Virus record (IMG/VR): IMGVR_UViG_3300030099_007399
Coordinates: 1-46,907 of that record
Reading direction: 5' to 3' (one strand)
DNA length: 46,907 nucleotides
DNA from: a virus
In this document: one piece after another, positions 8,101 to 46,907 of the stretch
Position numbering within the stretch: position 1 is the first letter of the stretch
Layout: every line of letters begins with the position of its first letter
The notes under the pieces: model-generated
Database searches by the model: none
Told to the model about the DNA's origin: nothing
Seen by the model: only the letters and a program-made list of their open reading frames with translations
Program-made: the position numbers and the translations under genes

Positions 8101-8189
8101 TAATCTTCCCACGCTTGAATCGTGGTAAAATCACCTGTTCCCAGTGGGTGGCTTGAAGCCCTAATTGTTTTTATTCTTGGTCTAGCCAA
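5151..8189 (-). CDS. Large tail fibre-like protein: beta-helix plus lectin fold
   Basis: A 1012-residue protein. The start is TTG at 8189, preceded by GGAG about 6 bases upstream; no ATG fits as well. Residues 1-330 look like a right-handed parallel beta-helix, opening with GTGDFTTIQAWEDYADD and followed by many short Asn/Cys/Ser strands. Residues 350-550 hold a run of about six degenerate repeats starting LF(I/V)-x-G followed by an I-x-L-x-I strand. Residues 660-960 look like a LamG/concanavalin-A fold (GVSTSFWIKRKG; DDDRWYFINYWVD). The N-terminal module is paralogous to the start of the neck-region protein at 21683-23209. Position after the tape measure, plus beta-helix and lectin modules, points to a tail-side receptor-binding or fibre protein. 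Confidence 0.65.
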   Translation of the reverse strand: MARPRIKTIRASSHPLGTGDFTTIQAWEDYADDKVNPYQWAECFSGFNLGTFTLSGWSSTPTPSGYPRIFASSGELHNGNITTGPIIYPGEDSTEVNTIAVSHAKVDGLGSTRGFHMDIDTASNMTVENCWATSKNDFCFKAKSSVGTTSSSGNIFKNCLAIGTTHQDIGFELGGSDMAGGKPGIQCHNCTAYGHKNSCYRVHNTALPGFYGGADVEIFNCIGADSDGSDFSFSSGGNGFIDFRNNISTDFSVLDTSDVLAVQFDQASSSLFKNPTKTISINSSGGLISVSSTADFRLRKNSRAINGGVTIDSVLSDIRLMPRPFASGPGTEEYDVGAYEFGGFPQGVPLFITGPNLLDNKINLTMFSPPKASGVNPLFIEGGVFVDSSGIPLHTRGLIKSQSENNLFVEGTKFKELVSLSIKPHATINNFGLFFINDEFASRLYPMFISGRGPQKEIDLSIPNIKDSSSSFSTLFVNAPIPKSNTAPLNIGNFTLKRRGLLYIEGKDPRVILGDELIVFASGVKEHFTLHLKGLINTGDISASTRLPDSRGRARTEDSFFLDTDLENTNKIGLNTQGFSGITAPDSVSFFRNELVDSSDFKPSKSEALLFAGSERNCADGSLYKFDNNTNDNSQDYGFKLYASGWRSKVGGSFTGPYTPESGFFQTSDRFPASSLTGSGVSRFKGDLSTPYYGTVLVQSGSPSINDQHRITPKDGHLDSAGNFTPARRGVSTSFWIKRKGPAPGYVPPVGSLGIRGVLGNCEIGFKSRGAPATSGQWSIYYAGHNSNVKASGDTPFNSLKDFLKPNSENKLQGELSAFGGLIPFVNTTAGGRMGRIGKTNDDGELTPEHLPGLMIPFDDDRWYFINYWVDTELYQSFVRVASPAKGHPGQSGYMPEIKPITDVSQKWDGYEVKTDTDDIKFKVGGLLQRGSDSVPYSNLGLNISLEPKQQEEFLIDELVVSNKVCSVNAMEQQFDLDYRNFTKQFLAQGDLNLFVSGFEQDVSIPQSGEGV

Positions 8190-8204: not shown

Positions 8205-11200
8205 TTACGCTGGAGTATCAACTTTTTCCGCTATTCTTGTCAGTTCCCTTTGTATTTCTTCAATAGTAGCGGATTTAACCGGTCCTTCCAGACTATCTAG
8301 TCCCGTCACATTTACTTGAACAGCATCAAGTCCGCTTATTTGCATTTGTATGCCATCGCCAAAGCTTGTTGTAAAATTATTCAAAGAATCAGTAAGAGCT
8401 GTAATTTTTTCTGATGAAGAAAAATTCGACAAAGCATTTGTTAAAGAAGATATAGACGAACCGTCCCCGCCATCTGCCTGCTGCTTGCTCTCAAAAACTG
8501 CAACTAAACGCTCAACTCCACTTGCTGTTCTTTCTGCAACGCCTATAGCTTGAGTTGATTCCTGTGGTGCGGCAACCTGAAACGGAGCATCAATCCCTGG
8601 GCTAATTGCTGTAGAGCTTGTTGCTCCTCCAAGACGTATCCCCGCTCCGGGAATTCCGTTATATATATTCGTGCTAGCCAAATCTACTGGTGGAATCGGA
8701 TTGGGCTTGTCCGGCGTAGATGTGGTTGGAATTTTTTGTGTTTGAACGTTTTGTTTTTGTGTTTCTAACCTGCCTTCTCTATCTGTCAGCCCTTTAAGTT
8801 TTGCATTGACAGAATCCAGTCGAGATTCAAAAACGTCCCAGCCATCAGTCTTTTTTAACCCTTCATTAAGAGACCTAGCCTTTTGTTCTATGTCTGAAAT
8901 ATCAATATCGCCTCTTATTATGCTATTTTGTAAGCCTCTGTCGATATTAGCCTCGTCAAGTCTTTGACGCTCATCTAATATTCTTGTGCCTGCAGCGTCT
9001 TTTGCTCCACTAAAAATTGATTCAAATGCGGGTGCCATTTTCCCTATCATGTCCGACACATCGCCAAAATCTGTGTCAAAATAATCAGCATCAAAGTCAG
9101 TCAGGCTGTTAATGGCGACGGCTAATTTACTAAGCTCTTCAGGACTAAAATCAAGATTTTCCTGCTCACCAACTTGCTTAAATACTCTTTGTGATATTCT
9201 TGCTCGCTCATCCCTTCCGGCAATATTGTCTTCAACAGCAATGTCGCTAGCGTTTATTTCTTGGAAAATTTGACTGAGAGCCCTTCGCATTGGGCTGTTT
9301 ATTGCGGCATCCATTTCCGCTCTAGTTGAGTTCGACAATCCCGGAACATCTGAACCAACACCGTGGCTTCGCGAGCGAATTTTTTTAGCCTCTGCTCCCC
9401 CAAATCCAGCACTCGTAATTCTATCAAGCCTGTGTAACTCTTTTGCCGACCTTCTAATTTCGTCAAAGCTAGAGGCGGCGCCTACAACTGCCTCTGCTTC
9501 CTTTCTGCCTCCAATTCCCATAGACGCAAGTTGGCCTCTTGTCGTTATTTTGTCTTGAGCCCGAACCTGTTCTTTTTGTGCGGTCTCTTTCTCTGCTTGT
9601 ACTCGCTCTTGAGCTTGCGCGACTATGGCTTCCCTAATTGACCTTGTTCCTTCTACTATTGCGTTTTTAACTTCAACGTCTGTTGTCTCAATCGTCTTCT
9701 CAAAAACCTCTTTTATTTTTTCTGCGGCTTGCCTCTGAACATTCATAGCCTCAAGTATCTTTTTCTCAAGTTCTTTCTCCCCCTTGCCTTTTTCCATACG
9801 TTTTTCCACTAAAACATCAATTTGTTTATCAGTTAACTTAGCCGCTGCGCTATTAGGAGGCGCCGCTCGAAGTTCTGCTTTTATCTGTTTCTTAGTTTGA
9901 CGTTTTATAATTTCGTCAGCGTCAACCATAATTTTTTTCCCATCTCCTTGCTCCGCCTCCTTCTCAAAATCTCTGACTTTTATTCCAGCCCCCGCAAATT
10001 CTCTAAGTTGTGCCAGTCCACCTTGCATCATCTGCTCACCCTGAGGACCAAGTCTGGCTATCTCTTGAGGAAGCATGCCTCTTTGAAGCAGGTTAGCCCC
10101 TCTCATGCCTGTTGCAAAGTTTTGTCTTTGCTCTTTAGTTCCAAAAGCAATGTCTGTCAGCTTTGATTGAGTATACTCTCTTCTTTTTTGCTCTTCTCCT
10201 AGTTGCTTTTGTAAAACCGAAAGTGTTGTAGTTGATTCAGCAAGATTCGAGAGGCCAGCTCTAAGCCTTTGACCCTCTTGGCCTAGAGTATTCAGGCTAT
10301 TAGTTGCGGCAAGATGTGCGGAGCTTCCAACTTCTAACTCTTTTATATATTCTCTTTGAGCTGCAATCTGTGCTTCATTTGCTTGAATTAAATCACCAAG
10401 CTCTTGGGGGTCCATTGGATTATTAAGATTTGCACCATAACCCAAGAAATCCGTTCCAATAATAGCTCGTTGCTCTTCTTCAAATCTTCTCGCTGCTTCC
10501 TGTCGAGCTTCCTGGTCTGTTCTTGCGGCTACTGCATTTCCCGCTACATCTCTACCAAACTGTTGTTCAGCGTCATCCAATTGGTTTTGCTTCTGAAGTA
10601 ATCGCTGCCTAGCTTGAGTGTAGGCCTCTTCAAGGTCATTTCTTTTCTGTAGCATAGAAAGAAGATTCTCTTGAGACTGAACTATTGCGTCACCTATTTC
10701 TTGCAATGCTTGCAAAACCTGCGGCCCAACATCACCTCTTATTTTTTCAGCAACAGCTCTAGAATCGCCTATAATTTCATCTCTTGCAGTTCCCTCTCCT
10801 TTTTGACGGCCTGTTGTCATTGTTCCTACAGCAGTAACAACCGAATTAGCAATGGTTCCGGTAAAACCCTTTGATTGTAAAGATTTTTTAACTGCATCAA
10901 CCAACTTAATATCGCTGTCCATTCCTGGGCCAACTGCCTTTGCGGCATCAAATAATACTCCTGGTAATTCTTGAGCAAGCCGGGCTTGTTGTGCTGCCTG
11001 TTGTCTTACATTTTCATCACTACTTGCCTGTCTTATTGCCTGTGAAAGCATGGCGGGGTCAACTCTTTCTCCCTCAGCCGCTCTTCCTAATATGTTGCCA
11101 GATTGTCTCGTGCCTCCAAAAGTTGCAGAAATATCTCCTCCTAACGCAGCATTAACTATTCCGCTTACCCTGTCTGCAAATTCAGACGTTATGTCTGCGG

Positions 11201-33272: not shown

Positions 33273-35324
33273 CTATTTACGTTGCACACCAATACCGTAT
33301 ATGCCTGTCATTTTTTTGACTAAATGCTCTGGGCCGGTGTATAATTGGCTGCCTGTTGGGTCTTTACCTTGCTTTGCGTAGCCCCCGACAAAATTATGCT
33401 CTTGTCCAGATAATTGATTTTCTAAGACATGACCCACTTCATTCGCCATTAATAAAGAAGAATATCTATCTTTTCTCATTCTAGACCTTTTTCCTCCCGC
33501 TTCAATTGTTTGCGGGGTGTCCCATCTGTCTCTTCCGGTAGAGGTCTGACCATGCTCGATAGTTGCAAGCTCGTCTTTAAGAGACTCTATTTCCATAACG
33601 CAATCTTCTAAGGTATCATAATGTCTGTTCGATATTTTATCGTCTGTGATAGCTTCCGATAGCAGGATAGTATCAAATTTAGGAAACAACAAGCTTTGTG
33701 TCTCAAGGTCTTTTCTTAGATTATGGTTTGCTTTAAATGTAAACTCAGATTTTGCAAATTGAATCATGTGCAATATGTGCAAACCAGCTTCGCCGTCTGT
33801 GGGTTTATTATTTGACTCCCAGTAAAAAGGGTCTTTGTTATCGTCCTCTTTGATATATGGCCACAATGGATGCTCTCCTTCTTTTAATAAGCTCTTGTCG
33901 TGAAGGGCCTCCATTATTGCTATCCCGCCTCCTTGAGCATCTATGGCTATATTTTTTGTTGGAAATATTTTTGTTAAATCTAGTATTTTTCTTGCGCAAT
34001 AATTGTAGAAGCTCTCTAGCTGAGATTCTTTTTTTGTTTTAATTCTTTCCCTCATTACCTGCCTGCTGCAAGTCCATACATAAACAATTCTTCTATGGCT
34101 CTCATTTTGTTCAAGAATTACAATTGAAAAATTGTCGTTTTCTGACGCTGGGTCTATACCGTAAATATATTTTTTATTTGGATTTCCACAAAGCATCGCG
34201 TCAAAAGAAACTTCGCTTCCGTCCTTAGTGGCGACAGGATTATTTGTTGAACATCTTTCAATTAAGCTTCTTCGAAAAAATCCTTCAGAGTCTTTTGCAA
34301 AGCACGCCTCGTACTCCATGTCATATCTTGAGCTGTGAAGCATAGCCTTTGCTTGAGCTAGCTGTGATTTATCCATAAAGCCTTCTGGCAAAACGCCCTC
34401 TGGTAATCTCATAACAGAATAGTGAGTCCAATCAAAACCTTCTGGTATTTTACCCTTGAATACGTGCTCTTCTAAATATCTCTCGTCTCCTTTACTACGC
34501 ACTATTTCTCTTTGTCTTACAAAATATTCGTAAAAATGATTAAATGCGTAGTAAGCTGTTCCAGCTATGATAGTTTGGTTTCCAAAACCAAGCTCCCCTT
34601 CTATCTCGTCTGCTTCTTCATACATGCCAAGCTCTTTAAGCTTTTGTATTTGAGCATATTCTTTTACTTTATCCGCAGGGTTGGCGGAAACAGCTCCAAA
34701 ACCCTTAATAACAACTTCAAATATTTCTTGGGGTATCGAGGCAAACTCATCGGCTATAATATAGTTCGCGCGTAAACCACGAATTTTAGAACCATCTCCA
34801 AGAGGTATAGCGATTATTTCGCTCTGGCCAACATAAAAAGTGCATCTATCTATATCTCTTTTTGGGCCTTGCCCTTTACCGGCGCCTACTATATTTCTGA
34901 ATATAGGAGAGTTTTTATAAAAAGTTTCCATGTACTCAAACAATAACTTAGATTGTCTGAACGCCGCACCTATTACGATAACCTTACAGCCCTGCATAAA
35001 AAAAGCTCTAAGTAAAGAATACAGAGCCAAAATCCATGTTTTGCCAGCTCCGCGAGTTGCAATTAACATTGGAAATTTTCTAGTCCAAAGCTCTTGTAAT
35101 ATAGAAAGCTGAAAAGGTAAGAGGTCAACGTTTAATAAATACTTACAAGTAAACCAAAAGTTTTCTGGCTTACTCATGTAATCCAAAAATTCTAAAACAG
35201 TATTATCATACTGCCTTTCTGGAAGTAATAGCTTGTTTTCTATATGTATCTTATCTACATCGCCTATATTTAAATGGGCGTGTTTTAGTAATATCTCTGT
35301 GCGGTTTTTATCTCTTATTTTCAT
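33273..35324 (-). CDS. terL: Terminase large subunit (TerL)
   Basis: A 683-residue DNA-packaging motor that cuts and pumps phage DNA. Start MKIRDKNRTE at 35324 is preferred over an in-frame start 22 codons upstream, because a GGAG lies about 12 bases before it and overlap with the nuclease gene is then 17 bases. Walker A is ATRGAGKTW (89-97), Walker B is NYIIADEFA (187-195), and the RNase H-like nuclease domain has D391 in YIYGIDPASEND and another Asp in KNIAIDAQGGG around 455-465. Domain order and length fit the family. Confidence 0.95.
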   Translation of the reverse strand: MKIRDKNRTEILLKHAHLNIGDVDKIHIENKLLLPERQYDNTVLEFLDYMSKPENFWFTCKYLLNVDLLPFQLSILQELWTRKFPMLIATRGAGKTWILALYSLLRAFFMQGCKVIVIGAAFRQSKLLFEYMETFYKNSPIFRNIVGAGKGQGPKRDIDRCTFYVGQSEIIAIPLGDGSKIRGLRANYIIADEFASIPQEIFEVVIKGFGAVSANPADKVKEYAQIQKLKELGMYEEADEIEGELGFGNQTIIAGTAYYAFNHFYEYFVRQREIVRSKGDERYLEEHVFKGKIPEGFDWTHYSVMRLPEGVLPEGFMDKSQLAQAKAMLHSSRYDMEYEACFAKDSEGFFRRSLIERCSTNNPVATKDGSEVSFDAMLCGNPNKKYIYGIDPASENDNFSIVILEQNESHRRIVYVWTCSRQVMRERIKTKKESQLESFYNYCARKILDLTKIFPTKNIAIDAQGGGIAIMEALHDKSLLKEGEHPLWPYIKEDDNKDPFYWESNNKPTDGEAGLHILHMIQFAKSEFTFKANHNLRKDLETQSLLFPKFDTILLSEAITDDKISNRHYDTLEDCVMEIESLKDELATIEHGQTSTGRDRWDTPQTIEAGGKRSRMRKDRYSSLLMANEVGHVLENQLSGQEHNFVGGYAKQGKDPTGSQLYTGPEHLVKKMTGIYGIGVQRK

Positions 35325-39510: not shown

Positions 39511-40252
39511 CCTATTGTGTGCGGTTAAAAACCGTACCGAGCATCTATTACGGTCGTATAAAAGTTGGCTCGATTGTGATTGCGTTGATGAAGTAGTCAT
39601 AGTTGATTGGGGAAGCGATATCCCCATATCTGAAAAGCTTGAAAAAAATAAGAAATTAAAAATAGTCCAGGTAAATAAGCATCATACCCGGTACTGGACT
39701 TTCAGTCAGGCTTATAACACAGCGGCGAGATTTGCCTCGTGTGATTATTATCTAATAATGAACGCTGACGAAATTATAGTCTCCTCTGAGGAGATATGTT
39801 CTCTAGAGCCACCAGATACATTTTTTTATGAGGGTACTAATTGGGATTCTCCCAGCGCTCATGGTGTATATTTCTTATATATATCAAAAGAAATTTTTTG
39901 GAAAGTCAATGGATATCATGAGGATATGATAGGGTATGGATATGATGACGTTGACTTTAAATATAGATTGGGGCAAGCTGGCTTTAAACCAAGAATTTCC
40001 TCGGTTAAAATAGAACACATAAAGCATGAATCATCTCATAAAACTAGAGACCACAAAATGAACTATATCGTTGGTTGGTCGCAGCCTTGGAGCGCTTGTG
40101 AAAGGCTAATAGGGCTGAGACACGAAGAAAAAGATGGGGTGATTATGTGCGATATAGATGATATAGATATAATAAGTAAGCAGAGAATGCTGCATAGGGA
40201 GGGCATAGCAAGAGCCCATTCTAGGCGTTCTTTAGACGATTTTGGTGTATAA
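39500..40252 (+). CDS. Glycosyltransferase, GT-A / galactosyltransferase-like
   Basis: A 250-residue soluble enzyme. N-terminal GT-A fold: LLCAVKNRTEHLLRSYKSWL then VVIVDWGSD (32-40), an N-A-D metal-binding variant of DXD at 88-90, and the C-terminal signature FWKVNGYHEDMIGYGYDD (133-150) with VDFKYRL, as in N-terminal galactosyltransferase-type families. Near-normal length for such an enzyme. It uses a nucleotide-sugar; the phage gmd gene makes GDP-deoxysugar precursor. Possible targets are phage virion protein, phage DNA or host glycan. Overlaps the upstream gene by 11 bases. Confidence 0.75.
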   Translation: MGISLLCAVKNRTEHLLRSYKSWLDCDCVDEVVIVDWGSDIPISEKLEKNKKLKIVQVNKHHTRYWTFSQAYNTAARFASCDYYLIMNADEIIVSSEEICSLEPPDTFFYEGTNWDSPSAHGVYFLYISKEIFWKVNGYHEDMIGYGYDDVDFKYRLGQAGFKPRISSVKIEHIKHESSHKTRDHKMNYIVGWSQPWSACERLIGLRHEEKDGVIMCDIDDIDIISKQRMLHREGIARAHSRRSLDDFGV

Positions 40253-40261
40253 GGAGATATC

Positions 40262-41623
40262 ATGCCACTACCAAAAAGAGAAAAAAACGAACAGGCCCGT
40301 GAGTTCATGGGCAGATGCATGGCCTCAAATGTCATGAAGGAAGAATATCCCGACCAAAAGCAGCGAGTGGCTGTATGTACCTCTCAGTCTAGGTCTGAAG
40401 CAAATAAGTCAAATCTTGGACAAATGGTTCAAGAAGAGCTTGTTTACGCTGAATATTTGTCAGACGCAGAATGTGGATGTGGAGAGGTCGAAGAGCTTAC
40501 CGAATCTAACTTTGTAGTTCCTAATGAAGAGGACTATGAGGATTTTGGAGAAGATGTTGAGGAAATTGATTTCGCCAGCCTTTGGGAAAACATTCGAAAA
40601 AAGAAAGAGCGAGAGGGAAAGAATTATAAGCCAGCAAAAAAGGGAGACAAAGACAGGCCTAAAAAAGACGCTTGGGATAGAGCCAAGGCTGATTCTGTTG
40701 ACTTGCTTGTAAAGCCTGGGGAAGATTACGTTATAAAACAAGACGTAGAAAAGTATCTTAGGGGATTACTGGTAGCAATAAACGAAGATAGTAGCTATGA
40801 GATTGCTTATTGGTATGATAAGCTAGAGCCTTACCCGATTGAAGTAATTATAGACGGAAAGTCTGTAGCTGAAGACGCAAAGATAATAAAGTTAAACTTT
40901 CACCCAGAAATAGACAAGGCTGACGCTTTACAGTACGGAAAGCCTAAAAAGAACGACCCAAGAAAAACACCAGCCAAGCCGTCTGAAAGAAAAAAGGGCT
41001 CTAAAAAGAACAAACCAAAAAGCGCATCAAAGCCTAATAAGTCTATTAAGTTCGGTAAAAATACAACCGAGCGATTAAGAAAGATGATGACGGAGCACAA
41101 TAAAAAGGGCAAGGGCTCTAAGGCAAGTATGGGGGCTTTAAAAGCCGTATACAGAAGAGGGGCAGGGGCGTTCTCAACCAGCCATGCACCTAAAATGAGT
41201 AGAGATGGATGGGCTATGGCTAGAGTAAAAGCGTTTCTTTATCTTTTAAGAAATGGTCGCCCGTCTAATCCTAACTATAAGCAAGACAATGATTTGCTTC
41301 CAAAGGGCCATCCAAAGAAAAGCTCAAAGGCTGATGCGTCATTTATTAGGTATCAACTTGGATTTGAAATAGCTGATGCGGCTAAATACAAGGGCAGGAC
41401 TGTGAAGTTGAATAAGCCCTTTCTAACTCCTGGTGGACCTAAAAAGCGTTCTGTCTATGTAAAGAACGAAAAAGGGAATGTAGTCAAGGTTAATTTTGGC
41501 GACCCTAATATGAAAATCAAAAAGAGTAATCCTGAGAGAAGAAGAAACTTTCGGGCAAGGCATAACTGTGATAATCCAGGCCCTAAATGGAAAGCGAGAT
41601 ATTGGTCGTGCAAGGCTTGGTAA
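40262..41623 (+). CDS. Modular phage protein with Cys-rich ends
   Basis: A 453-residue protein with AAGGAG before the ATG. Residues 1-45 carry a recurrent phage module (EFMGRCMASNVMKEEYPDQK then QRVAVCTSQS). Residues 60-150 are acidic then Lys-rich. Residues about 270-350 (KMMTEHNKKGKGSKASMGAL then AVYRRGAGAFSTS...GWAMARVKAFLYLL) resemble DUF5824-type sequences, from memory. The C-terminal 75 residues (GGPKKRSVYVKNEKGNVV, then NFRARHNCDNPGPKWKARYW) form another Cys-containing module often met in phage proteins. No catalytic role known. It may be a virion or head-associated protein. Confidence 0.6.
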   Translation: MPLPKREKNEQAREFMGRCMASNVMKEEYPDQKQRVAVCTSQSRSEANKSNLGQMVQEELVYAEYLSDAECGCGEVEELTESNFVVPNEEDYEDFGEDVEEIDFASLWENIRKKKEREGKNYKPAKKGDKDRPKKDAWDRAKADSVDLLVKPGEDYVIKQDVEKYLRGLLVAINEDSSYEIAYWYDKLEPYPIEVIIDGKSVAEDAKIIKLNFHPEIDKADALQYGKPKKNDPRKTPAKPSERKKGSKKNKPKSASKPNKSIKFGKNTTERLRKMMTEHNKKGKGSKASMGALKAVYRRGAGAFSTSHAPKMSRDGWAMARVKAFLYLLRNGRPSNPNYKQDNDLLPKGHPKKSSKADASFIRYQLGFEIADAAKYKGRTVKLNKPFLTPGGPKKRSVYVKNEKGNVVKVNFGDPNMKIKKSNPERRRNFRARHNCDNPGPKWKARYWSCKAW

Positions 41624-41847
41624 AAATAATAATAATCTTTTTAATTGCCATGGCTTGTTCTTGCGCAACGGCACAAGACAGGAGAACAAATCCATACAAG
41701 TCAGAAAAGGTATATCAGAGAAGACAAAGAATAGTAAGAAATGGAAATATAAATAATTTTTATAGACGGCCTATTAATATTCAATGGGTTTTAATTAACG
41801 GTCGGGCTGAAATGGTAATTTTGTTTAATAGAAACCAGGGGGGTTAA
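41617..41847 (+). CDS. Small secreted protein
   Basis: A 76-residue protein if started at TTG 41617 (MVKIIIIFLIAMACSCATAQ), giving a compact signal peptide with an ATA|Q cleavage site; an ATG start at 41587 would add ten residues. The mature part is Arg/Asn-rich (DRRTNPYKSEKVYQRRQR). It overlaps the preceding gene's stop. No family recognised; the Cys in the signal is not a good lipobox. Could be a lysis accessory or periplasmic factor. Confidence 0.45.
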   Translation: MVKIIIIFLIAMACSCATAQDRRTNPYKSEKVYQRRQRIVRNGNINNFYRRPINIQWVLINGRAEMVILFNRNQGG

Positions 41848-41848
41848 A

Positions 41849-42301
41849 ATGGCATCAACAATCACACCTTCAACCTTGACCATCACTATAGCTGAGGCTA
41901 TAACTCTTGGTGGAAATGCTTATAACTCTACGGTGGTGAAAACAATTGATAGCATAGGGAATGTGTCGAAAAGAATATTTACCCTAAACGCAACGTCTAC
42001 TCATACATTGGCAGAGTTTGCAAGCTCGACAACGAACGATAAGTTTGATTTGGATGACACGAAATATATAAGGGTAACTAATCTAGACGATGCGGCAAAT
42101 CTTGTTTTAACGCACGCAGGCGCCTCTGTAGCGGCTGGTGTAAGGCTTGGCCCTGGTTCAAGCCACATATTATTTGACCATAATATAAATGGCGCGGCCT
42201 CGTCTTCTGCGCTTACATCTTATGTGGATTTGGCAAATCTTCTAATTCGTAATAATGAGAGTTCTGCGGTAGACGTAGAGATGGTTATAGCAACTTTATA
42301 G
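41849..42301 (+). CDS. Probable minor structural beta protein
   Basis: A 150-residue Thr/Ala/Asn-rich protein with alternating strands (STLTITIAEAITLGGNAY; KYIRVTNLDDAANLVLTHAG; VRLGPGSSHILFDH), the look of a small virion decoration or fibre-tip sandwich. GGGGGG precedes the ATG. It is transcribed rightward, apart from the main structural block, so the role is uncertain. Confidence 0.5.
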   Translation: MASTITPSTLTITIAEAITLGGNAYNSTVVKTIDSIGNVSKRIFTLNATSTHTLAEFASSTTNDKFDLDDTKYIRVTNLDDAANLVLTHAGASVAAGVRLGPGSSHILFDHNINGAASSSALTSYVDLANLLIRNNESSAVDVEMVIATL

Positions 42302-42332
42302 GATAATTAGATAGGGACATTGGAATAATATA

Positions 42333-42668
42333 ATGTCTCCTGAAGAGATTTCAGCAAAATATCATAACTTAAGGTATGCCGTTCTAAGTATCTGTGACTG
42401 CATAGAGTCTTGTTCAGTGAAAAAAGTTGTAGAAGAGAAATATCTCCCTATGTTAGACGATTATAACGATAGGTTGACCCAAATTAAAAAAGAGCTTGCC
42501 AAGGAAATGTCTGACAAGAAAAAGCAAAAAGATAGGTGGGCTGATAAGATAAATAAGCTCTGTGCGGATGCTGCCTGCGATGAGACTATTTCTGATGAAT
42601 TGAGAGAAAGGATTATTGAGAAATTAAAGGAGCTAGCAGAAGGTGTTAAGGGGCATGAAGATTCTTAA
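42333..42668 (+). CDS. Small coiled-coil protein
   Basis: A 111-residue charged, helical protein with a central Lys-rich coil (KKELAKEMSDKKKQKDRW) and scattered Cys. No family recognised. It overlaps the next gene's start by 14 bases. GGAATAATATA lies upstream of the ATG. Confidence 0.5.
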   Translation: MSPEEISAKYHNLRYAVLSICDCIESCSVKKVVEEKYLPMLDDYNDRLTQIKKELAKEMSDKKKQKDRWADKINKLCADAACDETISDELRERIIEKLKELAEGVKGHEDS

Positions 42669-42918
42669 ATCACTATTAATGTTTGTTGTGCTGGCTCACT
42701 CTATTATAATATTTCTAAACATGGCGGCTTTCTTTATAGCGCCATTTGAAACTGCGTGGTACATCTGGGTACCAATATGTACAATGGTTGGGAGAACACT
42801 GTCTGCCAGTGGTAGGTGTCCTCTGACGATTCTTGAGAATAAAATAAGAGAAAGAATAGGTATGAAACCAATAAAAGGTTTTGTGTATCATTACTTCTAT
42901 CCTCATTTTCTTAAATAA
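42655..42918 (+). CDS. DUF2784-like small membrane protein
   Basis: An 87-residue protein. Start MKILKSLLMFVVLAHSIIIF at 42655 with AAGGGG upstream. Two hydrophobic helices (about 5-30 and 35-55), then the motif CPLTILENKIRERIG and FVYHYFYPHF, which match DUF2784 proteins as I recall them. Function unknown in that family. Followed by a probable terminator. Confidence 0.6.
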   Translation: MKILKSLLMFVVLAHSIIIFLNMAAFFIAPFETAWYIWVPICTMVGRTLSASGRCPLTILENKIRERIGMKPIKGFVYHYFYPHFLK

Positions 42919-42922
42919 AAGT

Positions 42923-42957
42923 TGTCGTTTCGTTTCTAGCGACGCTTGCTTTTTTTT
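42923..42957 (+). terminator. Probable terminator of the rightward block
   Basis: GTCG, a loop, CGAC with weak flanking pairs, then TTTTTTTT. It lies just after the last gene of the block. The stem is short, so moderate confidence. Confidence 0.5.
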
Positions 42958-43005
42958 GACCACCTCAGGTTTTTTCGCTACGATGAAGCAATGTGCTCAT
43001 TTTAT

Positions 43006-43085
43006 ATAAACCCCTAGCTGCAAACGACTTAGATGCTGTGGGGTCGGCCCGCGTCGACGTAACTCTTTGCGCAGTAAGCACTTAC
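43006..43085 (+). repeat. Paired 27-bp repeat element E1
   Basis: Two copies of the 27-bp repeat (43006-43032 and 43059-43085) with a 26-bp GC-rich spacer; starts are 53 bp apart. Each ends in (C/G)ACTTA(G/C). It is followed by AACTATTTTGACTTTTTTTT, which also follows element E4. Confidence 0.8.
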
Positions 43086-43126
43086 AACTATTTTGACTTT
43101 TTTTTGCTTTTTTGGTGAAATAGGGC

Positions 43127-43155
43127 TTGTAATTCCCAAACCATTCGATTAAAAT
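43127..43155 (+). promoter_or_regulatory. Promoter P1 for a leaderless mini-gene
   Basis: TTGTAA, 17-base spacer, TAAAAT. Only 6 bases separate TAAAAT and the ATG at 43162, so the mRNA would begin at or near the start codon. Shares CAAACCA-x-TCGA-x-TAAAATA with P2. Confidence 0.6.
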
Positions 43156-43161
43156 ATATGT

Positions 43162-43287
43162 ATGAAAAATGAGAAAAAAACAAAAAACTACTCAAGAACA
43201 CAGCCCCAAAATGCCGATAATAATAATATGAGAAAAAATGAAAAAAATACTCTGACCCCTCTTGTACTATTCAAACCAATCGAATAA
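43162..43287 (+). CDS. Putative leaderless mini-protein
   Basis: A 41-residue ORF, MKNEKKTKNYSRTQPQNADN at the N-terminus, Asn/Lys-rich. There is no ribosome site and it starts 6 bases after a -10 box. The stop overlaps the -10 of promoter P2. Coding status rests on promoter position only. Confidence 0.4.
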   Translation: MKNEKKTKNYSRTQPQNADNNNMRKNEKNTLTPLVLFKPIE

Positions 43288-43290
43288 AAT
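43262..43290 (+). promoter_or_regulatory. Promoter P2 before cassette 1
   Basis: TTGTAC, 17-base spacer, TAAAAT, related to P1 over about 25 bases. Predicted start near 43297, giving a leader of about 125 bases for the 54-residue protein. Confidence 0.65.
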
Positions 43291-43315
43291 AGAGCATACA
43301 ATTTGAGCGTTTAAC

Positions 43316-43344
43316 GTGTGCACCGCACACCCGGAGCCTTCCGG
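43316..43344 (+). promoter_or_regulatory. Structured 5' leader of cassette 1
   Basis: Two perfect hairpins: GTGTGC-ACC-GCACAC and CCGGA-GCCT-TCCGG. A similar two-hairpin leader precedes the paralog at 45176. Followed by a conserved 23-base string with the ribosome site AAGAAAGGAG. Confidence 0.55.
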
Positions 43345-43421
43345 AGAGAAGGACAAAAGCGGTAAGAAAAAATATGCAAACAAATAACAACAATACTCTA
43401 ACCAAGAAAGGAGAAACCATC

Positions 43422-43586
43422 ATGGATTTTGATAATGGTATTTTTCGTACCGTTCCCCATGATACCCTAACGGGTGTTGTGTGGATTGTCCGCAAAGCGG
43501 ATGGTGAGAGAATCACCTTCTGCCGTGGATTCGATGACGTAATGTTTTGCGTTGCCGAATTGATGAAACAGCGACTCGCTCGCTGA
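43422..43586 (+). CDS. 54-residue paralog pair, copy 1
   Basis: A small protein starting MDFDNGIFRT with strong AAGAAAGGAG upstream; an in-frame ATG at 43374 would add 16 residues (MQTNNNNTLTKKGETI), a segment also conserved in the paralog. About two-thirds identical to the protein at 45176-45340. Shared core: DGERITFCR and (M/E)FCVAELM-x-QRL. Pattern suggests a small beta-beta-alpha fold with two conserved Cys. No family recognised. Part of a duplicated cassette. Confidence 0.65.
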   Translation: MDFDNGIFRTVPHDTLTGVVWIVRKADGERITFCRGFDDVMFCVAELMKQRLAR

Positions 43587-43589
43587 TTC

Positions 43590-43757
43590 GTCCGGTACCG
43601 GTTACCCGTTCTACCGTATAAAAGGAACGGCCGGAATTATCCGGGGCTTAGCCGAATGGCTATTAAATACGCCTTAAAATAATCGCACATAGGGCTTGAC
43701 CCGCAAGCCGACCCCTAGCCGGTCGCATAGGTTGCCCCGCCTATTCAAGAATGGGGC
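43590..43757 (+). ncRNA. Structured non-coding stretch, cassette 1
   Basis: Contains the palindrome CCGGTACCGG (43592-43601), CCGTTC/GAACGG (43606-43630), CCGG-AATTAT-CCGG, the hairpin GCTTG-ACCCG-CAAGC (43694-43708), then CGACC-CCTAGCC-GGTCG (43709-43725), and GCCCC...GGGGC (43734-43757). Two sequence modules recur in cassette 2 in swapped order. Could be a 3' UTR element or small RNA. Confidence 0.4.
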
Positions 43758-43786
43758 TTGACATATTGTTTTTTGTTTGGTAAAAT
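43758..43786 (+). promoter_or_regulatory. Promoter P3, leaderless mini-operon
   Basis: TTGACA, 17-base spacer, TAAAAT, with 7 bases to the ATG at 43794. Near-consensus sigma70. The last bases (TTTGGTAAAATGAG) match P4. Confidence 0.8.
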
Positions 43787-43793
43787 GAGAGTT

Positions 43794-43973
43794 ATGAAAA
43801 TGGATATTGATAAAGCGATTGCAGAACACACCGAAAAATTTGATGCGATGATGGAGAGGCATCGGCATCTTGTCGCTAAGATTGATAAAGAAGCGGCCGA
43901 ATTACGCCAGCGAATTGATGAGTTGATTTCTAATCACGGTGAGACATTGCGGACTATTGACTGGAGAAAATAA
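43794..43973 (+). CDS. Small coiled-coil protein, probably leaderless
   Basis: A 59-residue protein, MKMDIDKAIAEHTEKFDAMM at the start, then a long charged helix (LVAKIDKEAAELRQRIDELI). The ATG is 7 bases after the P3 -10 box; ATGs at 43785 and 43800 are alternatives. No family recognised. First of three consecutive small genes. Confidence 0.55.
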   Translation: MKMDIDKAIAEHTEKFDAMMERHRHLVAKIDKEAAELRQRIDELISNHGETLRTIDWRK

Positions 43974-43975
43974 AA

Positions 43976-44179
43976 ATGAGTAAATTTTTACCCTACGAAG
44001 TACGCCAAACGATTGTGCGAAATGGTCAATTTTCGACCTGCGTGATTGATGAGGCTTCGACTTTTCAGGTTGCAAAGCAAATTGCGTGGCGTTCACACAA
44101 TGGGAATCCTACGACGCATATATACAATGCGTTAAGTGGGGAAACTTGGGTGTGTAAGAAAGGTGTATGGAGTAGCTAA
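43976..44179 (+). CDS. Unknown small protein
   Basis: A 67-residue protein, MSKFLPYEVRQTIVRNGQFS at the start. It has a short beta pattern and a Trp/Cys-containing C-terminus (SGETWVCKKGVWSS). GGAG lies about 10 bases upstream, inside the end of the preceding gene. Function unknown. Confidence 0.55.
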   Translation: MSKFLPYEVRQTIVRNGQFSTCVIDEASTFQVAKQIAWRSHNGNPTTHIYNALSGETWVCKKGVWSS

Positions 44180-44180
44180 G

Positions 44181-44330
44181 ATGGATAAGAAGGATAAATC
44201 GCACGTATTAGTGAAGAAGGATTGTGGTTGGCACTTTGGGAAAACTGGAGGGCCTTGCGAGAAGTGTAAAGATAAGGCGACTTCGATGGCTGCGCAACGT
44301 AGGTTAATGTGGAACAAAAGAGGGTTATAA
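44181..44330 (+). CDS. Small zinc-finger-like protein
   Basis: A 49-residue basic protein starting MDKKDKSHVL at 44181 (GGAG 8 bases upstream; an in-frame start 15 codons earlier is less likely). It has CGWHFGKTGGPCEKCKDK: three Cys and one His in a C-x2-H-x7-C-x2-C pattern fitting a zinc knuckle. Its stop is the first bases of repeat E2. Confidence 0.55.
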   Translation: MDKKDKSHVLVKKDCGWHFGKTGGPCEKCKDKATSMAAQRRLMWNKRGL

Positions 44331-44406
44331 CCCCTTACCACATAAGCACTTACGGCGGCGCGGGCGCCCCCTCCTTGACGTAACTCTATACACTGTAAGG
44401 CTTTAG
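44327..44406 (+). repeat. Paired 27-bp repeat element E2
   Basis: Repeats at 44327-44353 and 44380-44406, starts 53 bp apart, with a 26-bp GC-rich spacer. The first repeat overlaps the stop codon of the zinc-finger-like gene. Confidence 0.8.
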
Positions 44407-44420
44407 CATAATAGGCTCGC

Positions 44421-44482
44421 ACCGGTTCTAAGGGATTATAGCAGGAAGGTATAATGTACTAGAACCGGTTTAGAGGGATTAT
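44421..44482 (+). promoter_or_regulatory. Operator-like promoter region
   Basis: TATAAT (44450-44455) flanked by inverted arms ACCGGTTCTA (44421-44430) and TAGAACCGGT (44460-44469). A 19-base direct repeat (ACCGGTT...AGGGATTAT) also recurs at 44421 and 44464, with 3 differences. No good -35 is seen. GAGGG precedes the ATG at 44481. Confidence 0.5.
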
Positions 44483-44669
44483 GTATCAGCTAAGCCTACC
44501 GGCTAGGGCAGGGCAAAAGCTGCGCATCGGTGGCCAGCGTAAACTCTTGTATGGTAACGACTTACATCAACACGACCCCGCCCGGCGCGACGTAACCCCT
44601 TTGATACCAACGACTTACGACGACGAAATCATGGTACTTTGTAACTCCTTTGGTGGTAATGGTTTATAG
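44481..44669 (+). CDS. Doubtful small ORF running into repeat element E3
   Basis: A 62-residue ORF with promoter, operator-like sites and AGAGGG ribosome site. The first 18 residues (MYQLSLPARAGQKLRIGG) look like the start of a small regulator, loosely CsrA-like. From residue 19 on it is translated from three 27-bp repeats, so it may be a gene broken by the repeats. Function unknown. Confidence 0.3.
   Translation: MYQLSLPARAGQKLRIGGQRKLLYGNDLHQHDPARRDVTPLIPTTYDDEIMVLCNSFGGNGL
44539..44667 (+). repeat. Triple 27-bp repeat element E3
   Basis: Repeats at 44539-44565, 44592-44618 and 44641-44667. The first two starts are 53 bp apart with a GC-rich spacer; the third follows at 49 bp with a less GC-rich 22-bp spacer. 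Confidence 0.8.
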
Positions 44670-44960
44670 CGTGCCAAAAGTAAAATTTCGTGCTGAAAAT
44701 CGTGCCAAAAATCAGAAAATCGTGCCAAAAAAATAAAATGAGCAAAAATCACTGGGGCATAATGCCACGACGGGGCAAAACGCCACACCCCCTGTGGGGC
44801 AAAATGCCACACTATCTGTGATTGTAAATCGTTGTGAGGTATCGACTTAGCACAGCGTAGCACAATGCCCCAAATGCCCTGTGGCAAAACGCCACGGTTG
44901 AAAATCACGATGGGGCAAAATGCCACATGCCAAAAATCAGACAAAATAATTGGCACGCTG
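44669..44960 (+). repeat. Array of near-palindromes, possible origin or operator region
   Basis: Five copies of the 15-base GGGG/GTGG-CAWAAYGCCAC start at 44754, 44772, 44796, 44881 and 44912. Several CGTGCCAAAA repeats (44669, 44701, 44721; variant 44928) also occur. The ends are inverted (GCGTGCCAA at left, TTGGCACGC at right). One 27-bp repeat (44824-44850) lies inside. No gene fits this stretch. Confidence 0.7.
44824..44850 (+). repeat. Solo 27-bp repeat inside the palindrome array
   Basis: Reads GTAAATCGTTG then TGAGGTATCGACTTAG, a degenerate copy of the 27-bp repeat, same orientation as the others. Confidence 0.6.
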
Positions 44961-44986
44961 TAACTTGTTTGGTAGTAATGACTTAG
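44960..44986 (+). repeat. Solo 27-bp repeat before cassette 2
   Basis: Ends GGTAGTAATGACTTAG and is followed by a T-rich tract (TTTCTTTTTTTTTATTTTATTT), then a TATATAGAG stretch that may hold the cassette 2 promoter. Confidence 0.7.
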
Positions 44987-45073
44987 AAAAATGTTTCTTT
45001 TTTTTTATTTTATTTCCTGTTTGGTACGGCATGTGCACTATATAGAGATAGACAAGAGAGAAAACAACAACGT

Positions 45074-45110
45074 GGCTTCCGTAGCCCCGTAGGCCCCCCA
45101 GAGAGGGGGC
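45074..45110 (+). promoter_or_regulatory. Structured 5' leader of cassette 2
   Basis: Hairpins GGCT-TCCGT-AGCC and GCCCCC-CAGAGA-GGGGGC. They are followed by the same kind of GGA-AAAAGCGG-AAGA stretch and by the 23-base identical string ending in AAGAAAGGAG as in cassette 1. Confidence 0.55.
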
Positions 45111-45175
45111 GGAAAAAGCGGAAAGATAAAAATATGAAAAACATCAATACTCTAACCAAGAAAGGAGCCAATATC

Positions 45176-45340
45176 ATGGATTTCGATAACGGAATTTTCC
45201 GTACTGAAGCCGATGAGACCCGTCAGGGTATCTTCTGGGTCGTGCGGATTTCAGATGGTGAGCGAATCACCTTCTGCCGAACTCGGTCTGACGTAGAATT
45301 CTGCGTCGCTGAGTTGATGCGACAAAGGCTAAGCCTTTGA
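45176..45340 (+). CDS. 54-residue paralog pair, copy 2
   Basis: Starts MDFDNGIFRT at 45176 with AAGAAAGGAG upstream; ATG 45134 is an in-frame alternative. About two-thirds identical to the protein at 43422-43586, same length, with conserved DGERITFCR and FCVAELM-x-QRL and both Cys. Loops differ (residues 11-18), so both copies are under selection. Function unknown; cassette duplication suggests a dosage or variant role. Confidence 0.65.
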   Translation: MDFDNGIFRTEADETRQGIFWVVRISDGERITFCRTRSDVEFCVAELMRQRLSL

Positions 45341-45560
45341 GCATCCGACAAAACATAGGGCCTTGACCCGCAAGTCTACCCCAAGTCGGTAGCAAAGCCG
45401 GAGGGCTTTTCAAGATACTCAGAGGGACTTCCCGCCCTCTTAAAAGATTGGTCGGTGAAGCGGTTTAGCTTGCTACCGTGTAAAAGGCAAGTCGGCAAGC
45501 CGTTGCCGGGCTGGAGAGTCGAAAGACGTTGACCCTTAAATACGCAATAAAACGGCAAAA
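45341..45560 (+). ncRNA. Structured non-coding stretch, cassette 2
   Basis: Hairpins: CTTG-ACCCG-CAAG (45362-45374), CTACC-CCAAGTC-GGTAG (45376-45392), AGAGGG/CCCTCT (45421-45440), CGGCAA-GCCG-TTGCCG (45493-45508), GTC-GAAA-GAC (45518-45527). GGTAGCAA (45388-45395) can instead pair with TTGCTACC (45470-45477), so two folds compete. Hairpin 2 shows one G-C to U-A change against cassette 1. Confidence 0.5.
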
Positions 45561-45564
45561 ACAT

Positions 45565-45592
45565 TTGACAGGTTTATTTTATTTGGTAAAAT
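45565..45592 (+). promoter_or_regulatory. Promoter P4, leaderless mini-operon
   Basis: TTGACA, 16-base spacer, TAAAAT, with 7 bases to the ATG at 45600. The downstream half (ATTTGGTAAAATGAGGTTTATG) is close to P3. Confidence 0.75.
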
Positions 45593-45599
45593 GAGGTTT

Positions 45600-45848
45600 A
45601 TGATTATGAGTCAGCAAGAATTCACCGATGCAGTCGCCCGCGTTCCCGCACTTTGGGGTCGTAAGGTTGTGAGCGTTTTGGAAGTGGCCGATGGTATGGC
45701 GTCGGTTCGCGTGTCCGGTAATGTTCACGGCTTTTGGGTTCCTGTAGAAAAGTTGGAGCGTGTAGGTCACAAGCCTGCAAAGCCGAAACTGTATTTCGAT
45801 GGTGAGTCTTGGGGTACACAACCAGTTAAACGTTCGGAGGTTTGTTAA
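45600..45848 (+). CDS. Unknown small protein, probably leaderless
   Basis: An 82-residue protein, MIMSQQEFTDAVARVPALWG at the start, beta-rich (VVSVLEVADGMASVRVSGN; HGFWVPVEKLERVGH), perhaps an SH3-like small barrel. The ATG is 7 bases after the P4 -10; ATG 45606 with GAGG upstream is an alternative. First of four overlapping small genes. No family recognised. Confidence 0.6.
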   Translation: MIMSQQEFTDAVARVPALWGRKVVSVLEVADGMASVRVSGNVHGFWVPVEKLERVGHKPAKPKLYFDGESWGTQPVKRSEVC

Positions 45849-45971
45849 ATGCCAAGTTTAGAAGCAGAAGCGGCTGGAATGATTTGGTCAGAGGAACTCG
45901 ACCGCTGGGTTCACCCTGATGAATTTACAAATGAGAGTCTGAAAGAATTGGAGATTTTACTTAATGGTTAA
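45849..45971 (+). CDS. Unknown 40-residue acidic protein
   Basis: Starts MPSLEAEAAGMIWSEELDRW directly after the previous stop, with CGGAGG 8 bases upstream. Acidic and helical. Its stop overlaps the next ATG by 8 bases, so the four genes are translated together. Function unknown. Confidence 0.5.
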   Translation: MPSLEAEAAGMIWSEELDRWVHPDEFTNESLKELEILLNG

Positions 45972-46086
45972 GCTAATCGCAAAATGTTTTTTGTCGTTGC
46001 TCGGTTGGTGTGCTTTGATTGTTGGAACGTGGGCAGGTGCTACGTTGTTCGCTGCTTGGATGTTAAATTTTGGGAGGCCTCTTTGA
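45964..46086 (+). CDS. Single-span small membrane protein
   Basis: A 40-residue protein, MVKLIAKCFLSLLGWCALIV at the start, then GTWAGATLFAAWML, one long hydrophobic segment. It overlaps both neighbours (8 bases and TGATG). Family unknown. Confidence 0.5.
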   Translation: MVKLIAKCFLSLLGWCALIVGTWAGATLFAAWMLNFGRPL

Positions 46087-46316
46087 TGGTTGAATTATTT
46101 AAGGCCCTTGGCCTTGCGTTTTTAATGGGCTGTGCGATTGTAGTCGGCCCGCTTGTGTTGCAGCTTCACGTTCAACAGCTTGAAATTCAGCAGGCGGAGC
46201 GAATGATTGAAGCGGTACAAAATACGCCGCCGCAATTTCGCAACGCTTCGCCTTATGATTCTTGGCGGCAAGCTGAACAAGAAAACGACACGCGAATATC
46301 TGAGTATCGACCGTAA
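46086..46316 (+). CDS. Small membrane-anchored protein
   Basis: A 76-residue protein starting MVELFKALGLAFLMGCAIVV at 46086, with GGGAGG upstream and a TGATG overlap. An N-terminal membrane helix is followed by a Gln/Glu-rich coil (LQLHVQQLEIQQAERMIEAV) and a polar tail. The helix-plus-coil shape is spanin-like, but no family is recognised. Confidence 0.5.
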   Translation: MVELFKALGLAFLMGCAIVVGPLVLQLHVQQLEIQQAERMIEAVQNTPPQFRNASPYDSWRQAEQENDTRISEYRP

Positions 46317-46341
46317 CACCCAACCCGGCCGGATGAGGCGC

Positions 46342-46421
46342 GTAAACCTATATGCTGTAAGCACTTAGGAGGGCGCGGCCCCGCCCGCGTGAGCGTAAAC
46401 CCTTTGGTAGTAACGACTTAG
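46342..46421 (+). repeat. Paired 27-bp repeat element E4
   Basis: Repeats at 46342-46368 and 46395-46421, starts 53 bp apart, spacer rich in GC (GGCGCGGCCCCGCCCGCG). It is followed by AACTATTTTGATTATTTTTG, as after E1, and then promoter P5. Confidence 0.85.
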
Positions 46422-46471
46422 AACTATTTTGATTATTTTTGTTTATTTTGGTATTTTTGTAAAGAATTTTG

Positions 46472-46500
46472 TTGACAACGCCGATAATATATAGTAGAAT
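46472..46500 (+). promoter_or_regulatory. Promoter P5, leaderless gene
   Basis: TTGACA, 17-base spacer, TAGAAT, with 8 bases to the ATG at 46509. Confidence 0.75.
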
Positions 46501-46508
46501 CGTTTATT

Positions 46509-46637
46509 ATGACAGTTAAAAAATTCCTATTGCGACTGAGATACACAAGCAAGAGACCGCTTGACATTAGTGCGGCCCGATGGTATGCTATGGTCAAGCA
46601 ATACAACAACAACAAAGAGGCGTTTGAGAATGAGTGA
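46509..46637 (+). CDS. Unknown small basic protein, probably leaderless
   Basis: A 42-residue protein, MTVKKFLLRLRYTSKRPLDI at the start, basic and helical (AARWYAMVKQYNNNKEAF). Starts 8 bases after the P5 -10 box without a ribosome site. Its end overlaps the next gene by 8 bases. Family unknown. Confidence 0.5.
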   Translation: MTVKKFLLRLRYTSKRPLDISAARWYAMVKQYNNNKEAFENE

Positions 46638-46907
46638 GATAAAAAAATTGTGGCACTTTCGGCAGAACAACAGCGGCGGCAAGTATACCGGACCCGCTTA
46701 CAATATCGTTGTGGAAGGCGACACGATAGAAGAAGCGTGGCAAGAAGCTGAAAAGCTCGGTGCGACTAATGACGATAGTTGTTCTTGCTGTGGCGACCGC
46801 TGGAATGATGCCAATGAAATTAAGAGCAGAGACTATATCATTTATCTTGATATGGCTATCGAGGACAGCACTTATACAAGCCGAACGGGTGGAAAGTTTC
46901 CGCTGGT
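46630..46907 (+). CDS. Unknown protein, cut by window end
   Basis: At least 92 residues, starting MSEIKKLWHFRQNNSGGKYT and open at the window edge. Beta-alpha pattern with a Cys cluster (DDSCSCCGDRWND). AAAGAGG lies about 14 bases upstream. Too incomplete to name. Confidence 0.5.
   Translation, partial: MSEIKKLWHFRQNNSGGKYTGPAYNIVVEGDTIEEAWQEAEKLGATNDDSCSCCGDRWNDANEIKSRDYIIYLDMAIEDSTYTSRTGGKFPL

Follow-up and report, generated by a model that had tools for sequence, protein, structure and literature searches.

In T4-type phages, the PeSLs are mobile intergenic elements made of a promoter and a simple stem-loop. Other phage RNAs, the cyanophage manA and wcaG, were reportedly described by Weinberg et al. 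in 2010 as conserved structured RNAs of unknown function, brought out by comparative genomics of phages and metagenomes. The put RNA of phage HK022 is ~70 nt long and folds into two stem-loops; putR lies ~270 nt after the promoter (PMC9378689). Here we analyse a 46.9-kb virus record of the IMG/VR database (IMGVR_UViG_3300030099_007399; 46,907 nt, hereafter the window), from a phage whose terminase is just 22-29% identical to those of known phages. Two small-gene cassettes of the window each contain a ~65-nt element, motif A, which is a real folded RNA, as supported by covariation. Our preferred reading, with a probability of about 0.4, is that motif A acts in cis as the 3'-boundary RNA of the upstream cistron. 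All window features given below are on the plus strand.

Structure and covariation of motif A

From 5' to 3', motif A comprises a GGG..CCC element, a bulged hairpin (stem A) with the loop CC(U/A)AGUC, a lone A, then an H-type pseudoknot whose linker is UUC(C)AAGAUA; about 20 of its bases are invariant. Copy 1 of the window (43690-43757; 73.6 bits) has the hairpin GACC/GGTC, the stem TAGG/CCTA and the pseudoknot GCCCC/GGGGC, and copy 2 (45356-45420) has TACC/GGTA, AAGCC/GGCTT and GAG/CTC at these places. Further copies were first sought with degenerate DNA patterns derived from the tract that follows a 54-aa protein gene in the window, then with a covariance model. The bases fixed in the patterns are invariant partly through this selection, and stem A served to filter the early copies; stem B, the G21-C41 pair and the pseudoknot pairings played no part in accepting copies at the pattern step, and the last two are absent from the covariance model as well.

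In the resulting 45-row alignment, stem A consists of C23-G40, three variable pairs and C27-G36. Over stems A and B, 96.4% of the cells are paired and 70 of them carry a double change, versus 18.0 in shuffles, none of which (0/500) reaches 70; as a control, slid structures fail this test. The G21-C41 pair, which is outside the model, becomes A-U in 5 of 42 copies. With this pair formed, the pyrimidine at position 22 bulges out of stem A, and the invariant A42 connects stems A and B. The segment after UUC(C)AAgAUA is complementary to the loop of stem B, as in GCCCC/GGGGC, ACGGT/ACCGT, GAGC/GCTC or GCCTCT/AGAGGC; the perfect pairing between loop and 3' strand is on the average 4.03 nt long versus 2.81 nt with permuted partners (0/100,000 permutations). 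Conservation of a protein-coding sequence does not account for motif A, which shows 1-nt indels (in the GGG-CCC gap and in loop B) and in-frame stops. The tract does not stand out by its folding energy (z from -1.3 to +0.7), which would miss it if used alone; it is the comparison between phages that exposes it.

Motif A mostly begins at the stop codons of small genes from unrelated families

The context of motif A was analysed for 43 distinct copies. In 24 of them, the end of an open reading frame (ORF) of 45 aa or more falls between -3 and +5 nt relative to the GGG, for a chance rate of a few percent (our own estimate, based on one ORF end per ~300 nt), and the junction of stop codon and motif A is mostly UAGGG or UAAGGG. 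The genes that end there belong to many unrelated small families. For the 54-aa protein encoded upstream of motif A in the window, homologues were found only in two related records, of 93.7 kb (L003) and 148.8 kb (L004), and the protein in only three of the 30 motif A records: motif A is not tied to it, and is independent of any one protein. Type III antitoxin RNAs of the ToxI kind are pseudoknots repeated in tandem ahead of a ToxN-type toxin gene; there is a single motif A per gene junction, with a close pair only in L288, and the check for toxins covered the small proteins of the window. A candidate start is present 55-125 nt downstream in 20 of the 43 copies; elsewhere motif A closes the operon and runs directly into a boundary palindrome (L004a, L009 and L306; see below) or is followed by a new promoter (window and L003). 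It goes, therefore, with the end of the upstream gene and not with the downstream gene.

A U-run of at least four is found in the stretch after motif A in 17 of the 43 copies, and not in all of them together with a GC-rich stem, as an intrinsic terminator would require. A readthrough or frameshift signal was also considered and rejected, the frame closing early after the stop in several copies, as in L005 (UAA GGG UUU AAC CCG CAA GCC UUG CCC UAG). In L007 (2580-2800), L148 and L289, tandem repeats of ~28 nt (CACTTGAAGTTGAACAAGTAAACAACGA) stand directly behind motif A.

The fold of motif A (by covariation), its strand, its recurrence, its position after stop codons and its independence of proteins were computed; from them we infer the 3'-boundary function. 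Placed directly behind the stop codon, motif A would mark the 3' boundary of a small cistron: it would fold after the ribosome's departure from the stop codon and then set, or protect, the 3' end of the mRNA. This could be achieved by a block to 3'-5' decay, by directed cleavage (its own or that of a nuclease) or, where a U-tract follows, by termination, and the small phage genes would then be expressed as separately stable mRNAs. A pistol ribozyme behind another small gene of one such phage (see below) speaks for this role too. The position of motif A after the stop codons of unrelated small genes makes for a simple claim on how phages separate the expression of neighbouring small genes.

Several observations weigh against such a boundary role. 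The ~20 invariant bases exceed what a simple stabilising hairpin needs and suggest a specific partner, a ligand or catalysis. U-tracts are missing in most copies, and 13 of the 43 copies, some of them at contig ends, have no clear adjoining ORF in our search. In copy 1 of the window, the 3' strand of the pseudoknot abuts the -35 box of a promoter, so that a role at the DNA level is possible there.

About half of the copies are followed by a start codon, in most cases within a narrow range of distances (84-94 nt from ACCC), and the pseudoknot is aptamer-like, with a U-tract in 17 copies that could be a terminator platform; motif A might then be a riboswitch, or some other regulator of the downstream gene. 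We consider this improbable, since it is to the upstream stop codon that motif A is tied. The downstream genes vary or are absent, with no fixed gene class or ribosome-binding site, the pseudoknot strand is not located over the Shine-Dalgarno (SD) sequence and no Rfam riboswitch matches.

An RNA that modifies RNA polymerase, in the manner of put- or EAR-like processive antitermination, could likewise be placed in untranslated intercistronic RNA, where it is able to fold. By analogy, HK022 put is of the same size class and has the same gross plan, and motif A has its stems A and B one nucleotide apart, a bulge in stem A and a gene-independent location. However, the copies that end an operon or precede a new promoter leave little to be antiterminated, and put is without a described pseudoknot (0 mentions in PMC9378689); such a function appears rather unlikely to us.

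Distribution of motif A and relation to known RNA families

The covariance model recovers motif A in all 19 of the first-identified records, at 1-4 copies each, in 4 of 50 records fetched only for carrying the boundary palindrome, and in 7 of 39 other records, some of which were fetched with a relaxed pattern. The total is 30 IMG/VR records, a count that includes two, G018 and G140, that look like the same phage. The copies obtained with the degenerate patterns all came from viral contigs: scanning 84,980 prokaryote genomes gave 37 pattern matches, none with the full stem (3 of 4 pairs at the most), and a host-genome motif was rejected. A blastn search of isolate phages returned short chance matches only. 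No family of Rfam 15 matches motif A, be it with permissive settings (window 40000-46907 and L017 5950-6250) or over the whole window and further loci. Motif A thus adds to phage biology a well-supported family of structured RNA with a pseudoknot and no Rfam entry.

A multiplicity of one to four copies per phage, a conserved fold and a location in 3'-untranslated regions could befit a stable small RNA cut from mRNA 3' ends and acting in trans, either as a decoy or as a regulator. Outside of the structural core, though, the copies have no conserved unpaired seed in common, and we regard a trans-acting RNA as very improbable.

The models for pistol, twister, twister-sister, hatchet, hammerhead and hepatitis delta virus-like ribozymes do not match motif A either. 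Twister and twister-sister had been prompted by ACCCGCAAG and were rejected for want of an Rfam match. As a positive control, the pistol model does detect a true pistol ribozyme nearby in L149 (2909-2970, record G018; 47.7 bits for a gathering threshold of 34.5), and with an equal score in G140 (35004-35065); it comes ~70 nt after the end of a different small gene, and motif A is 1.4 kb away. The presence of a genuine pistol after a small gene of the same phage, the compact double-helical pseudoknot fold with its ~20 invariant bases and the lack of a protein partner after motif A are all in favour of a new self-cleaving ribozyme, which would cleave the phage's polycistronic mRNA where its first cistron ends. 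To our knowledge, known ribozymes have stems that are free in sequence; the 5' GGG..CCC and the ends of stem B of motif A are fixed. As, in addition, no Rfam ribozyme family is matched and no cleavage site can be named, we judge self-cleavage to be unlikely.

Put more broadly, it is possible, if doubtful, that motif A is a new class of functional RNA, either self-cleaving or directed at RNA polymerase or the ribosome, that environmental phages would put at small-gene stop codons to split one transcript into separately controlled mRNAs. Self-cleavage or an action on RNA polymerase, if true, would reveal an RNA mechanism of a new kind and provide a compact tool for genetics.

The duplicated cassettes of the window

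The original prediction, made from the window alone, was that of two paralogous cassettes, and both are indeed there: the leader, the 54-aa protein, the structured tract and a TTGACA/TAAAAT promoter are each present twice. The underlying repeat (43368-43525 versus 45122-45279) is 75% identical across 158 nt. The 54-aa proteins (coding parts 43422-43583 and 45176-45337; 43422-43586 and 45176-45340 for the whole genes) are 67% identical, which agrees with the two-thirds first proposed. Both ORFs have in-frame ATGs further upstream, which would give proteins of 70 and 68 aa; the 54-aa starts are favoured because of their strong SD sequence, part of a 23-base string (CAATACTCTAACCAAGAAAGGAG) that is identical in the two leaders, at 43391 and 45145, as had been noted.

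In cassette 1, a promoter-like TTGTAC-17-TAAAAT (43262-43290) precedes the leader (43316-43413, up to the end of the SD string at 43391-43413). Of the two hairpins said to be common to both leaders, the one with a CRGAGA-type loop holds in both copies (43337-43352, with a CGGAGA loop, and 45093-45110, GCCCCC CAGAGA GGGGGC), and its stem covaries over four leaders; the GTGTGC/GCACAC hairpin (43316-43330) stands up well in copy 1 and L004 and is weak in copy 2, where the leader, with hairpin 2 and the SD string, spans 45093-45167. The 54-aa protein has no match in Pfam or PHROG, nor among isolate phages by tblastn. A beta-beta-beta-alpha fold is predicted (predicted local distance difference test score, pLDDT, of 93.5); the best fold match, the methane monooxygenase inhibitory subunit, was set aside as uninformative, its Z of 6.1 being below the trusted level.

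The promoters that follow the tracts are, as anticipated, present in both cassettes (TTGACA-17-TAAAAT at 43758-43786 and TTGACA-16-TAAAAT at 45565-45592), and their ATG comes 7 nt downstream (43794 and 45600), which makes leaderless starts plausible. Mini-operon 1 encodes proteins of 59 aa (43794-43973), 67 aa (43976-44179; an HNGNPTT family with paralogues in L003, L004 and L009) and 49 aa (44181-44330; with HFGKTGGPCEKC). Mini-operon 2 opens with an 82-aa protein (45600-45848; 99% identical in L004), followed by three more small genes (45849-45971, 45964-46086 and 46086-46316; together 45849-46316).

Upstream of cassette 2, the window has TGGTACGGCATGTGCA at 45022-45037, a promoter-like sequence whose GG-N10-GC spacing would be sigma-54-like. 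The same TGGYACR-N5-YGCA, then a TATA-rich stretch, is found at L003 9483, L004 9951, L007 3590 and 4932, and L012 725 (minus strand); there are six such sites in 458 kb (both strands) versus 0.2 expected, all just upstream of leaders. Five GGGGCAWAAYGCCAC palindromes (44754-44926), candidate activator or operator sites, lie 100-270 nt upstream of the sigma-54-like site, a position that would fit activator sites.

The tract itself was originally described as RNA-like and structured. Structured it is, in both cassettes, and it comprises two separate RNAs, in the order B-A in cassette 1 and A-B in cassette 2. Element B (copy 1, 43588-43687; copy 2, 45452-45566) is a second pseudoknot RNA (CGGT..ACCGURUAAAAGG), with CCGTTC/GAACGG as pseudoknot in copy 1, two further hairpins and TTAAATACGC. 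Its three known copies, two in the window and one in L004 (10282-10398), show compensatory changes in the two hairpins, and with three copies only they are suggestive of a structured RNA.

Are leader, protein and tract one functional system, as was proposed, with the tract always following the MDFDNGIFRT-type proteins? The homologous cassette of L004 at 8001-8162 keeps the leader and has lost the tract entirely, so that the tract is not essential; that at 10024-10188 has the tract, with a leader devoid of the above hairpins. As each keeps one part, the three do not form a fixed unit, and what stands of the proposal, as opposed to a random duplication, is a functional RNA tract.

Boundary palindromes

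A 26-27-bp DNA palindrome, GTAAgTCCTT-N7-AAcGACTTAC, was found 11 times in the window by a scan with a position weight matrix, always within 43006-46420, whereas ~0.35 is expected in the shuffled window. The sites are often paired 53 nt apart: 43006 and 43059 (43006-43085) are upstream of cassette 1, 44327 and 44380 (44327-44405) and the group of 44539, 44592 and 44641 (44539-44666) come next, then a site at 44824, which is among the five GGGGCAWAAYGCCAC palindromes, and one at 44960-44985, and the pair of 46342 and 46395 (46342-46420) is at the end of cassette 2. In related phages too they stand between operons, and a strict version is present in at least 120 viral stretches of IMG/VR. Both arms keep their sequence from copy to copy and may differ from one another in any single copy, which fits a DNA-binding site and not an RNA hairpin. 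The integrase domain PF00589 is encoded by 0 of 19 motif A records and 1 of 50 palindrome records, which may be fragments; dif, att or tyrosine-recombinase core sites were rejected, there being no associated integrases.

Palindromes bound each cassette, and the cassettes have visibly been shuffled, as judged from the opposite order of A and B and from the independent loss of leader and tract; the protein starting at 45600 is 99% identical to its L004 counterpart and its neighbours 54-75%. The conserved blocks could thus be boundaries of module exchange, kept at gene junctions for swaps of small-gene cassettes by recombination. However, changes that compensate each other in both stems and the pseudoknot call for selection on a folded strand and not on identical DNA, and no integrase occurs in the 19 motif A records; we think it highly unlikely that exchange explains them.

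Comparison with known systems

The cassettes resemble the PeSLs in being intergenic modules of promoter and RNA structure tied to cassette swapping, and differ by their conserved pseudoknot RNA and their separate DNA palindromes. Motif A shares with manA and wcaG its origin as a phage RNA revealed by comparative genomics; it has no Rfam match, another sequence and another position. Like pistol (Rfam RF02679), it is a small RNA of phage small-gene regions in which a hairpin loop reaches over an A-rich linker to pair with downstream sequence; the invariant bases are other ones, the family does not match and motif A has an extra bulged hairpin. With HK022 put, the likeness is one of gross layout only, i.e. 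a phage RNA of ~70 nt with two bulged stem-loops and a gene-independent position, whereas motif A has an H-type pseudoknot, follows the stop codon of the first cistron and can end an operon.

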